Source: Methylophaga marina (lineage in GTDB: Bacteria; Pseudomonadota; Gammaproteobacteria; Nitrosococcales; Methylophagaceae). Taken from it: DNA of 64,000 nucleotides. The translations under genes and the position numbers were made by a program. Below are positions 1 to 4,606 of this stretch, one piece after another. Numbering within the stretch: position 1 is the stretch's first letter; each line of letters opens with the position of its first letter. Below the pieces are notes generated by a model. That model ran no database searches. It saw nothing but the letters and a program-made list of their open reading frames with translations, and was not told the DNA's origin. The stretch is taken from contig NZ_AP027741.1 in assembly GCF_030296755.1 (NCBI RefSeq), forward strand, positions 2,047,475 to 2,111,474, read 5' to 3'.

Positions 1-60
1 ATTCGTTGCACTTTTTTGGGAGCTTTGTAGTTTTCACTGAACTACTTGAGAGTATTGAAA

Positions 61-483
61 ATGAAAAAAAGAGTCACTGTTACCATCAAGAAGGCCGGAT
101 TCAGAGCAACTAAAACAGAAGTAGGTGTCACAAAAAAAGGAAACAAAATAACTTCTGAAAGAAGTGCTGATATATCTCTCTCAGATGATAAATCTTCAGA
201 AGCTGCAAATACTCAAGCTCATCTAGATCTATCAACAGTATCAAAAGAACAAAGATGTCCAATGTGCGGCGAGACTATAACGAAAAAGTACAGGAAACAC
301 ACGAAAAGCTGTCAGCAAAGAATTGAGAAAGAGAGAAAAGAGAAACGAGCGATGTTCAATGCTCAGCTAAAAAAGCTGAGGAAAAGTCAGATAAGTTCGA
401 CAGGATACAAACCTAAAACCAAGAGCATTACCAGCAAGAAAAAAAGCATGGAGACATTGTCCTCTATTCTCAAGTGGGAGTAA
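61..483 (+). CDS. Hypothetical protein with a CxxC...HxxxxC zinc-finger-like motif
   Basis: Lysine-rich protein of about 140 residues, family not recognised. The N-terminal half is basic and low in complexity. Near the middle is one candidate metal site: CPMCGE, then H and C in the pattern CPMC-x12-H-x4-C, resembling a C2H2/C2HC zinc finger. The last third is again Lys/Ser/Thr-rich. The start is taken at ATG 61; an upstream TTG at 46 is in frame. The frame ends at 483 just after an A7 run (439-445). Adding one A there would run it into the next ORF, which also has zinc-type cysteines, so the two may be one gene. It sits in the AT-rich accessory segment. Nucleic-acid binding is a guess from the motif and charge. 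Confidence 0.5.
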   Translation: MKKRVTVTIKKAGFRATKTEVGVTKKGNKITSERSADISLSDDKSSEAANTQAHLDLSTVSKEQRCPMCGETITKKYRKHTKSCQQRIEKERKEKRAMFNAQLKKLRKSQISSTGYKPKTKSITSKKKSMETLSSILKWE

Positions 484-683
484 GGAATGATGAGGTGCTT
501 TTTTGTTCATTATGCAAGAAAAAATCATCTACAACATGGCGTTACACTAAGAGCAATAAAGGCCCGGTTGACTTGTGTATAAATTGCAAAGCAGTGGCGC
601 CCAGAATGAAACAGAAATCAAGACGGGAAGGTTTTTTGATAAGACTTCCTGGTTCGTTTGAGAATGGTAAATCTAGTAAATAG
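474..683 (+). CDS. Small zinc-ribbon-like protein, possibly the C-terminal part of the preceding gene
   Basis: A frame of 69 codons from GTG 474 with two cysteine pairs: CSLC near residue 11 and CINC near residue 36. This is the spacing of a small zinc ribbon. The rest is basic. It overlaps the previous ORF by 10 bases and no clear Shine-Dalgarno precedes the GTG. The frame is open upstream as far as the A7 run at 439-445, so a single missing A there would make one protein of roughly 210 residues with two zinc motifs. The function is unknown. Confidence that this stretch is coding is moderate; confidence in a separate start is low. Confidence 0.4.
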   Translation: MGVRNDEVLFCSLCKKKSSTTWRYTKSNKGPVDLCINCKAVAPRMKQKSRREGFLIRLPGSFENGKSSK

Positions 684-891
684 ATATTGGAGTCGGTTAA
701 CTTTGATATGGATGGTATCTCTCATTTTGCCTTAGCTTTTTGCCAAGGCGGCATTAGACTTGATTTATAGTCCACATAGTTAGTTTCTGATAGTTTGGCA
801 AGCCAAGTGAATACGCACAGTACAACGGCTGGACACATGTAATGTACTTGTGTAGTTTTCTCGGTTCTTAAAGTAATACGAAAAGGACTTC

Positions 892-1890
892 ATGATGGGA
901 AAGTTGAAAAAAACAGCTGAACTTGGTGTGGGTGCGGGTGGAGCAATCTCAACTGTTTGTGGTCTGGTTGCTGATTTTTTTATGCCAGTTGCTCCGTATG
1001 GTATCTATTTAGGCTTCGCTGGCCTTCTACTACTCCTAATTTCGATAGTGTTATTTTTTACTCCGTTCACTAATAAAAGGCTGGCTGTAGCTATGAACGA
1101 TAGCTGGTATCTGCCTTCTTTTGTCTTATTATTAGTCTTTACTACTTCAATGTTCGGTTTTTACTACTTTGGTAAAAGTGTACAAGGTGGTAGCGGTTAT
1201 TTAGCTGGTAGTTTTGAAGAACTGAGCCATTTACAATCTCAAATTCTTGCAACTAATCTTCAGATAGAAGCAAACACAAGAGAGACTGCTTCGAATACAA
1301 AGCGTACTTCTGAAAATACTGATGCTTTGACTCGATTGGTCAAACGAGAAACTAGTGGCGATCCCCGTAAGGAGCTTGGAAATTTGGGATGGAGTTGGTC
1401 TCAGAACTCTTTTTACGATGCCGTATTAACCAATAACGATGTTGTAGTAGACCTCTTTTTGCAGGGTGGAATGAGTCTTAATTCAACAGACTATTACAGC
1501 AACAATTTAGTAGCTCTCATATCATCTCCAAGGTCACATACTCAGCTTATAAAGTTGCTCAGAGCAAACAGTATAGAAAAAAATACAATTAATTCCTTGT
1601 CTTCATCTGTAGCTGTAATCGAGAACACAGTCCTCAGCCGGCAGCTCGAATCTTACTATCCTTCAATGGATTATAACAACTTAAACAAACCTTTCGCGAA
1701 TCAAATGCAGATGACCCCATTGATAACTGCTATTTTCATGAATAATAGTGAATTAGCAGAACTGCTGATTCGAAAAGGAGCATCCACAGAGACTTATTGC
1801 AGTGCGTACGACGTAAATAATCCTAATTCATGTTTACTTCATACAAACCCTGTGCAGGAAGCTCGTAAAAAGGGGATTTTATTAAATTAA
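892..1890 (+). CDS. Membrane protein with C-terminal ankyrin-like repeat
   Basis: About 332 residues. Three hydrophobic segments lie in the first 95 residues (about 12-32, 38-60 and 72-93). A polar, Thr/Asn-rich region (about 105-150) follows and looks coiled-coil-like. A cytosolic C-terminal half comes next, where at least one ankyrin-type helix pair is visible near residues 278-296 (TPLITAIFMNNSELAELLIRKGAS-like). ATG 892 and ATG 895 are both possible; the AAGGA at 883-887 is better spaced for 895. No family is recognised. The gene lies in the accessory segment beside a retron and faces it tail to tail. A defence or effector role would be speculation. Confidence 0.6.
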   Translation: MMGKLKKTAELGVGAGGAISTVCGLVADFFMPVAPYGIYLGFAGLLLLLISIVLFFTPFTNKRLAVAMNDSWYLPSFVLLLVFTTSMFGFYYFGKSVQGGSGYLAGSFEELSHLQSQILATNLQIEANTRETASNTKRTSENTDALTRLVKRETSGDPRKELGNLGWSWSQNSFYDAVLTNNDVVVDLFLQGGMSLNSTDYYSNNLVALISSPRSHTQLIKLLRANSIEKNTINSLSSSVAVIENTVLSRQLESYYPSMDYNNLNKPFANQMQMTPLITAIFMNNSELAELLIRKGASTETYCSAYDVNNPNSCLLHTNPVQEARKKGILLN

Positions 1891-2215: not shown

Positions 2216-3831
2216 TCACTTTAAGCTCATAATTTGATCAGCGATTACGCAAAGATTTAGCCCACCAAACTTATTTTCCTTCTTCGCTACGATCCCAACT
2301 ACATCGTAGTTAATATCGAAAACAGGACCACCACTGTTTCCACCTTGGAGAGGTTTGTCTACCTCGAAATAATTTACCAAGCTCTTAGTTATGAGGTTGG
2401 AAATGCCGCATAAATAGGTCGAGTGAGGGTTTCCAGTGTCGTATGATGGAAAGCCCTTGATAACGAGGCTTTGCATTAATTTGGGGGGTGGGCCGCTAGT
2501 TTAACTGAGGATTCCAACTCAGTTACCGGCACATCTTCAATTTGGCAAATCGCTAAGTCTCGATGCCAACATGTCTTTAATGGGGTGAGAGTGTATTTTG
2601 TGAAAGGACTACCCTGTCTGAATATTACTAACTTGGAGTAGTGCTGCTTAGAATCTAAATCGCCAATCACATGGGCTGAAGTAACTATTCCTATACCATC
2701 CAAATTGAAGCCTGTTCCTTGAGCTTCAATCATTCCATCTCTTGAAAACGCTTCAATTACCCAGAGAGATTTATTCGCGTTTTCTTCTGGAGCTGTAGTT
2801 TCAAAAAAAGCGAGTTTTAATTCTGGCTCAACAAGCTTGTTAAATCGCTTGGTTAATTTTGTGTAGATGGGATTCATTACTCCTCGAACTTGGCTCAGAA
2901 AAAGTAACTTACCTCGTACGACATGCATAAATGAGACAGGGCTCAATGATGGTCTCTGCTTCGTTCTGAATTTCTCATTGTATTTTTGCTCAGCAGATTC
3001 GTATCCAAACTTTTCCCAAGCATAGAGCATGGAGGCAATTTGCTTAACATAGCTACGCTTAACATTAGGAGTGTTATTTACCGTAAGCCCCGTTACCTCC
3101 ATACGGACTCCAGGGTGAGATAGTCGTGTTTTTGAAGAGTTGAGCTTGAACCCACTGTCCTCGATAATTTCTAGAAGTTTTCTGCCTACTGTGTGTTTGC
3201 CGTCAGAGGTTTCAGTGACGATAGAGCTAGGTAACCTTGAGAGTTTGCAAGTAAAAGAGAATGTTATGTCGTCAGCATACCGCGTATAGCGACAGTTATG
3301 TTCAGCAGCTAATACCTGAAGCTTGGCGTCCATCTTTCTTGCAATCATGTTAGAAATAATTGGTGATGTCGGAGCGCCCTGAGGGAGCTTGCTCTGACAC
3401 ACACATATCTGGGCCAGGATGGTTGCTACTGAGTGATTAAAGTTGAATGGATCTGCCTGAAAGAGGTTCCGAATTCTGACAAAATGAATTGAGCCGTAAA
3501 AGTCTTCCAGATCTATGTTGAAAATAAACTTTCTGTCGAGATGTGCCTGGGCATTCGTGACAATACTCCTGTTATGAATAAAGCCATGAACTGAGGGTTT
3601 TGGAATGTATATTTCGTACAAAATATCTTTGAGTTTGCGCTGGATGCTTTTCAAATTTTTTGATGGTGACTTTATTATTCGTTTCCCACCGTTTTTTTTA
3701 TTTAACTCAAAGGTTGTGTACTGAAAATCATGGTGACGGTACAGAATTCTGGCGAGTGATTTGTAGCTCATCCCAAAAAGACTTGCTACATCTTCTGCTG
3801 TCCTTAATTTAAGGAATGCCTCTTTTGTCAT
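2216..3831 (-). CDS. Retron reverse transcriptase fused to a trypsin-like serine protease (frame break in a G6/C6 run)
   Basis: As read, residues 1-451 end at 2476 and an 86-codon frame continues to 2216. Adding one base in the homopolymer at 2483-2488 fuses them into about 538 residues. The N-terminal ~320 residues are a retron-type RT: the NAxxH motif of region X appears as NAQAH, the catalytic motif as YADD, LPQGAPTSP precedes it, and the region Y VTG motif appears as VTGLTVN. The C-terminal ~190 residues form a trypsin/DegP-like domain: GTGF, then TSAHV (His), RDLAIC (Asp) and GNSGGP (Ser, in the second frame). A candidate msr-msd RNA lies directly upstream. Retron RTs make a branched RNA-DNA molecule and, with an effector, act in anti-phage defence. 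The protease is the likely effector. A slippery-site reading (C CCC CCA) or true mutation cannot be excluded. Confidence 0.85.
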
Positions 3832-3836
3832 AAGTT

Positions 3837-3975
3837 GGAAGGGAACCTAGTTATTTCTCTTATACAACAACAGCGACCAAGGGACACCCATAGACGCCAG
3901 TAAGACCAGAAGAATAACCTTGTGATTTACTACCGCAGATAGACAGCAGAGATTAATACCTCTAGATTCCCTTCC
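3837..3975 (-). ncRNA. Candidate retron msr-msd RNA with 14-bp a1/a2 inverted repeat
   Basis: On the minus strand the transcript would begin with GGAAGGGAATCTAG (a1, 3975-3962) and end with CTAGGTTCCCTTCC (a2, 3850-3837). These are fully complementary over 14 positions with one U-G pair. They enclose 111 bases and end 5 bases before the RT start codon, which is the classical retron order a1-msr-msd-a2-RT. Just after a1 a small hairpin AGAG/CTCT can form. Near a2 a longer stem is possible: UUAUU pairs with AAUAA, then UUCU with AGAG, with GCG, GGG, CCC and CGC pairing further in. The priming G and the exact msd boundary cannot be fixed by eye. Confidence 0.7.
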
Positions 3976-4030
3976 ACTAACAGATGATGATTGAAGCCAG
4001 TCTATTGTGTCAAGCGTAGTAAGTGGAAAG
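3970..4030 (-). other. Second inverted repeat overlapping the retron a1 segment
   Basis: CCTTCCACTAA (3970-3980) and TAAGTGGAAAG (4020-4030) can form an 11-position stem with one mismatch and one wobble around a 39-base loop. It shares bases with the a1 arm. A longer primary transcript could therefore fold in two mutually exclusive ways, with this hairpin competing with a1:a2 pairing. This is structural inference only. Confidence 0.35.
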
Positions 4031-4099
4031 AAATTAATCGTTATCCGCTCAGCCGCCGGTTGCAAATTCAGGCAGCTCGAACCATCTATCACTGCCTGT

Positions 4100-4105
4100 T
4101 ATAAT
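4100..4105 (+). promoter_or_regulatory. -10 element of the tRNA-Arg promoter
   Basis: A perfect TATAAT lies 11 bases before the mature tRNA end and is followed by a GC-rich GCCAGCCC stretch, the discriminator type usual for stringently controlled stable RNA genes. The -35 region, about 4077-4082, is a weak match. Confidence 0.6.
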
Positions 4106-4116
4106 GCCAGCCCGAT

Positions 4117-4193
4117 GTCTCCGTAGCTCAGCTGGATAGAGCGTCCCCCTCCTAAGGGGAAGGCCGCAGGTTCGACTCCTGCCGGGGACGCCA
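4117..4193 (+). tRNA. tRNA-Arg (anticodon CCU)
   Basis: A 77-base cloverleaf. The acceptor arms GTCTCCG and CGGGGAC pair over 7 bases with one T-G. The D-arm contains AGCTGGATAGAG. The anticodon stem TCCCC/GGGGA encloses loop CTCCTAA, so the anticodon is CCT, reading AGG. The T-arm is GCAGG-TTCGACT-CCTGC. The 3' CCA is encoded. It reads the rare Arg codon AGG and stands between the retron segment and the core genes. Confidence 0.95.
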
Positions 4194-4606
4194 TTTAATC
4201 TTCATTTTTTCAATGAGTTACATTGCTCTGGTTTCAGCGTCGTATCCTCAAAATACTCATTTGGGACAATTTTGGGACACTCAAAATGCGTATTAGCCAG
4301 TGACCATTTATCTGTGGTTCGCTTTCAACCTATCGGCTTACTCTTTTATCCATACTAACTGGTATTCATTTTCCCTTTTTACAGATGATGAATGCACTCT
4401 CTGTTTTTCTGCAAGACACAGCAAGAGATCAGTCCCTCTATCAGCATAGATTGATAAATATAGTGATCAGTGGCATCTAAAGTTTAATCAAACTTTGGCG
4501 ATACGCTCTTTATCACTAACTCATATTAAATTATTCATTAAAAAAGGCTACCCGTGGATAGCCCTTTTTTGCTTATATGACTAAGAAAAATATAAAGCCA
4601 ATCAGT
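4194..4606. other. Intergenic region after tRNA-Arg with a TTGGGACA direct repeat
   Basis: No gene is seen in about 410 bases. Close to the tRNA the octamer TTGGGACA occurs twice with an 11-base period (4261-4268 and 4272-4279). Similar tandem GGGAC motifs often lie beside tRNA genes used by tyrosine integrases, so this may be a remnant of an integration site, but no integrase or tRNA-end duplication is visible here. The right end holds a strong bidirectional terminator. Confidence 0.4.
4541..4570. terminator. Bidirectional Rho-independent terminator
   Basis: The stem GGCTA/TAGCC, extended by flanking A and T runs, has a loop CCCGTGGA. T-runs are present on both strands. It ends the minus-strand amidase gene that stops at 4607. 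Confidence 0.75.

Follow-up and report, generated by a model that had tools for sequence, protein, structure and literature searches.

The inverted repeat just upstream of the reverse transcriptase (RT) gene in this Methylophaga marina DNA is almost certainly the stem formed by a1 and a2 in a type XI retron msr-msd RNA, which is predicted to start at about position 3976 from a putative minus-strand promoter (Table 1; positions refer to the window, i.e., the whole stretch of 64,000 nucleotides that was analyzed). The repeat is assigned to a 141-nt msr-msd RNA because relatives keep a covarying helix at the same place. An earlier reading of the sequence alone had taken the repeat for the ends of a minus-strand retron RNA lying before the RT gene, and this proposal is supported by a type XI RT, by covariation at 15 of 15 pairs, and by a promoter-like site at the 5' edge.

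Table 1. Features of the predicted retron RNA and its flanks in the window.
Feature	Position	Strand	Basis
Predicted retron noncoding RNA (msr-msd), 141 nt	3836..3976	minus	Covariance model R1, window match 139 bits (training sequence)
a1, 5' arm of closing stem, TGGAAGGGAATCTAG	3962..3976	minus	15-bp helix; covariation at 15/15 pairs
a2, 3' arm of closing stem, CTAGGTTCCCTTCCA	3836..3850	minus	Helix, covariation; 4 nt before RT start codon
msr hairpin 1, CUGCUG-UCUAUCUG-CGGUAG, consensus CCNNUG/CRNNGG	3930..3949	minus	Covariation
Probable second msr hairpin (approximate limits)	3903..3925	minus	Single-sequence folds, window and Pseudomonas relatives
Probable msd hairpin, GGCGUCUAUGGGUGUCCCUUGGUCGCU, 10 bp with mismatches	3872..3898	minus	MFE structure; equivalent variable hairpins in relatives
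Conserved 3' box, UAUAAGAGAAAUAA, just inside a2	3851..3864	minus	Kept in alignments
Promoter-like site, TTGACA-18-CATCAT	3984..4013	minus	Consensus match; -10 box ends 7 nt before a1
Retron RT (YADD, NAxxH, VTG) fused to N-terminal trypsin-like protease half (His, Asp)	2476..3831	minus	PADLOC, Pfam, motifs
Remaining C-terminal protease half, GNSGGP (catalytic Ser), other frame	2216..2476	minus	Trypsin_2 87-144; PADLOC XI 425-505

The inverted repeat and its conservation in relatives

On the minus strand, TGGAAGGGAATCTAG at 3976-3962 pairs with CTAGGTTCCCTTCCA at 3850-3836 in a 15-bp helix that includes one G-U pair and encloses an insert of exactly 111 nt. The sequence-only reading had described a 14-bp repeat around 111 bases before the RT gene; both arms of this core are present (GGAAGGGAATCTAG at 3975-3962 and CTAGGTTCCCTTCC at 3850-3837), and an extra pair, T3976/A3836, lengthens it to 15 bp. 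A minus-strand scan of the whole 64-kb window for helices of at least 14 bp, with at most one G-U pair and a loop of up to 200, identified this repeat as the only one that was not a short hairpin. When the 250 nt preceding the RT gene were shuffled with dinucleotides preserved and at most one G-U pair allowed, a 15-bp helix was obtained in 0 of 1000 cases and a 14-bp helix in 1 of 1000. Unrestricted G-U pairing, on the other hand, gave 15 bp in 4 of 300 shuffles (about 1%), and for this reason the repeat taken alone is moderately strong evidence. The folded RNA was far more stable than shuffles (z = -5.5). The decisive evidence is conservation of the repeat in relatives.

When the window RT was used as a single-protein query, neither the genome nor the viral collections yielded a match; 80 loci were obtained once the species-genome collection was queried with an alignment. 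The window's own order contributed one type XI homologue (G039, 54% identity), a wider class sample added the type XI relatives G185 and G097, and plasmid records gave more. The same-species genome G079 lacked the RT, and the exact retron was found as a single copy. Most of the relative loci carried an inverted repeat of unrelated sequence just before the RT gene, enclosing about 90-135 nt, with arm pairs such as TGGAAGGAGGTTTGG/CCAGACCTCCTTCCA (L013), ATGCGAGAAAGC/GCTTTCTCGCAT (L023), and GCGGTCGTGAGGGG/CCCCTCACGATCGT (L052). By a crude shuffle test, 33 of 48 protease-type loci had a significant upstream helix, and the covariance model recovered several that were helix-negative by this test (L019, L024, L025, L026, L029, L031, L032, and L034). 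Retention of the RT without the repeat, which had been named in advance as evidence against a retron RNA, is thus not the general pattern. Some protease-type loci showed no significant upstream helix by the crude shuffle test (e.g., L064, L066, L074, L082, L084, and L090); in these loci, the start codon or the upstream limit may have been set wrongly.

Covariance model R1 was trained on four sequences, namely the window and its three nearest relatives, and its structure comprised the closing stem, a short inner helix between a1 and the msr hairpin at 3949-3930, and that hairpin itself. Searched against 87 sources (623 kb), it detected 14 untrained RNAs at E<1e-4, all of them lying at the upstream border of an RT gene. 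Because the arms differ in length, MAFFT placed the closing stem wrongly when 14 RNAs were aligned, and the covariance model was used instead. In the resulting 18-sequence alignment, 97.4% of cells were paired (68% when shuffled, 40-52% when slid), the covariation score was 0.693 (0.193 when shuffled, at most 0.127 for slid partners), and changes on both sides occurred at 15 of 15 closing-stem pairs, although the pair counts are somewhat inflated because the sequences were aligned to the structure of the model. Among gapless helices, native arms were 98% paired and arms swapped between loci 42%; since these helices were picked for pairing, only this contrast is informative, and it indicates that the sequences differ between loci. 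The comparison of upstream regions of related RT genes, which the sequence-only reading had suggested as a check, reveals covariation at all closing-stem pairs. In addition, a blind msr-motif search of viral contigs hit two contigs, in each of which a type XI-like RT follows immediately; lysis-type phage genes adjoin one of them. A phage-like contig carries a type XI-like retron RNA and RT (L117:524-654), and the neighboring ORFs resemble a cell-wall hydrolase, a spanin, and a DNA methylase.

A chance or otherwise unrelated repeat, such as the termini of a small insertion element or a hairpin that regulates the RT gene, would be compatible with the frequency of 15-bp helices under free G-U pairing, and an arm that lies 4 nt from the start codon could regulate translation. 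However, the repeat keeps its position as its sequence diverges, and every pair shows changes on both sides; the insert contains a conserved msr hairpin and 3' box; and the same RNA accompanies RTs that are encoded on plasmids, in phage-like contigs, and in several phyla. The covariation refutes such an origin, which is left with a negligible probability.

Predicted anatomy of the RNA and its priming site

The hairpins expected of a retron RNA, one to three in the msr and one in the msd, are predicted within the closing stem, the first msr hairpin being indicated by covariation, and the second msr hairpin and the msd hairpin by folding. In the 18-sequence alignment, 100% of the cells of msr hairpin 1 were paired, with both-side changes at three of its six pairs. 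The msd hairpin is probably part of the reverse-transcribed template, and the conserved 3' box, judging by its place and conservation, is presumably where reverse transcription starts. A possible msd base stem, CUCUU/AAGAG, was good in the nearest relatives but broke down in the Pseudomonas group and remains tentative. A search of Rfam with the predicted RNA gave no family matches. Upstream of a1, promoter-like sites such as the one in Table 1 are no more numerous in the region than in shuffles, and similar TTGAC boxes precede a1 in several relatives. Downstream, a2 is separated from the ATG of the RT by ACTT. In a mostly alphaproteobacterial group of loci (L070, L071, L072, L095, L099, L021, and L086), the 3' arm reaches the predicted RT start codon, and the template RNA and the coding sequence would therefore overlap.

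The candidate priming guanosine is G3962, the last base of a1 and nucleotide 15 of the RNA. Its UAGA context (3964-3961) fits the expected place, although it is not the commonest context and is not kept in all relatives. Priming guanosines have been described in TAGC and CAGA contexts at the inner end of a1 (PMC6868368), and the branched base of retron-Eco2 is rG15 in CAGA (PMC12405507, PMC6868368), to which the candidate G15 proposed here, in UAGA, is analogous. The sequence-only reading had placed the msDNA template to within about 60 bases, which is only roughly right in that the msd must lie in the 3' part of the insert; the 3' end of the cDNA and the priming guanosine, however, are not fixed by computation.

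Direct support at this locus exists for the stem and its covariation, for the msr hairpin, for the class of the RT, and for the order of the genes, whereas priming, msDNA synthesis, and defense are expected by analogy with known retrons. Transcription from the putative minus-strand promoter would start at about 3976, and the RNA would then be closed by pairing between its two ends. The RT gene follows a2 after 4 nt, and its product would bind the msr hairpins, prime on the 2'-OH of the guanosine at the inner end of a1, and reverse-transcribe the 3' part of the insert to give msDNA. Were the system intact, the complex of RT and msDNA would restrain the fused protease until a phage disturbs the complex.

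The closing stem of type XI retrons might also control the RT, with one transcript being either template RNA or translated. This is an unlikely proposal, and it is raised because in most relatives the interval from the end of a2 to the RT start is 4-17 nt long and mostly lacks a Shine-Dalgarno sequence. If true, such a fold-or-translate switch would self-limit a toxic RT-protease.

The reverse transcriptase and its divided protease

The RT ORF (3831-2476) encodes 451 residues and matches Pfam RVT_1. Its best PADLOC match was RT-Protease_XI (521 bits, E=1.2e-156), the next type reaching 413 bits, and the runners-up were RT-TIR_XII and RT-Toprim_I-C. The ORF contains TRYADD, NAQAH (region X), and EVTG (region Y), in line with the YADD, NAxxH, and VTG hallmarks of retron RTs (PMC6868368), and among solved structures it is nearest to the RTs of retrons Ec67 and Ec86. 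On these matches, the RT belongs to the type XI group, i.e., to the fusions of an RT with a trypsin-like protease.

In relatives, the RT runs on into the trypsin-like protease. In the window, both protease halves are present and collinear, but they occupy two frames: the His/Asp half (Trypsin_2 positions 1-73) lies in the RT frame, and the Ser half is out of frame because of a one-base shift at a C6 run (2483-2488, within window 2476-2490, minus strand) that divides the two. The Ser-half frame encodes 86 residues, and its ATG overlaps the RT stop codon (TAATG). With the protease frame broken, the effector in this genome is probably inactive or made in two pieces. The sequence-only reading recognized the RNA ends and the RT; however, the fused protease and its frameshift went unmentioned.

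One interpretation of the split, to which we give slightly better than an even chance, is that the retron is decaying, with RNA and RT intact and the protease effector lost, so that msDNA may form without defense. This would modify the main explanation rather than replace it. It is suggested by the different frames of the His/Asp and Ser parts at the C6 run and by the finding that none of the relatives examined carries the same split. A read error in the C homopolymer may be the cause of the frameshift, as homopolymers are the usual site of such errors and a single genome is available. Sequencing error is nevertheless not the default view, because a comparison of 10 kb of neighboring DNA with the same-species genome revealed only two indels, both outside predicted reading frames. 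On the other hand, past the shift the frame stays open and protease-like, with no further damage, which argues against decay. There is also a small probability that the protease is deliberately two-chain, or that ribosomes slip at the C-run and so join its halves. Coupled translation of the Ser half is permitted by the TAATG overlap, and the break falls between Trypsin_2 positions 73 and 87, between the His/Asp and Ser halves; however, this arrangement is absent from every relative examined, and a one-base homopolymer change is the simpler cause.

Genomic setting and relation to known retrons

A distance of 140 bp separates the retron from the 5' end of tRNA-Arg(CCT). Window positions 4081-4200 hold the 5' part of this tRNA gene and its upstream flank, copies of which also occur in the same-species genome and in the related L110 and L111. 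Partial copies of the same segment were found at L113:8716-8790, L113:1830-1890, L114:17852-17901, and L114:16790-16837, and they appear to mark tandem integrated islands. The 15 kb from the nearest copy to the tRNA contain type I restriction genes, an Mrr-type nuclease, and a tyrosine integrase. At L113:8909-19099, type I restriction R, S, and M genes, a tyrosine integrase, and an Mrr-type nuclease adjoin the retron. The locus thus looks like a defense island at a tRNA-Arg integration hotspot, and the nearby type I restriction genes, Mrr nuclease, and integrase are the context for a presumed anti-phage role of the retron. Just downstream of the retron, a 67-residue minus-strand ORF (1950-2153) is apparently an integrase remnant, as over its first 28 residues it is closely similar to the N-terminal end of the intact island integrase (L113:16461-17684). 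The product of window positions 892-1890 spans the membrane with its N-terminal part and matches ankyrin repeats weakly at its C-terminus. Another species of the genus carries, near the same hotspot, a copy of window positions 1-1478 at 93% identity.

The locus is an ordinary retron in kind, a further type XI retron with a well-supported RNA. It shares with the type XI retrons in PADLOC (PDLC02959/PDLC02960) the RT class, the fused trypsin-like protease, and an upstream RNA with a1/a2, and differs from them in that its protease is split by a frameshift. Type XII retrons (RT-TIR), the next-best RT match, have a TIR effector, unlike the protease of the window; the crude test detected no significant helix at the one TIR-type locus in the window's order (L015). 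Retron-Eco1 (Ec86) also has an a1/a2-closed RNA before a recognizably related RT, although its msr and msd differ from those of the window retron, and its RT is not fused to its effector. Retron-Eco2 (Ec67, type I-C, an RT-Toprim fusion) has the closest solved RT and the same single-gene RT-effector design, but its effector is a Toprim domain where a protease is found here. Retron-Eco2 forms RNA-mediated oligomers.

For type XI retrons, the outcome is a covariation-tested RNA model that lacks an Rfam counterpart and whose boundaries can be used in msDNA tests. Furthermore, the locus offers a natural split-protease allele beside an otherwise intact RNA and RT, and thereby raises the question of whether the RT-RNA part of a retron can persist without its effector.
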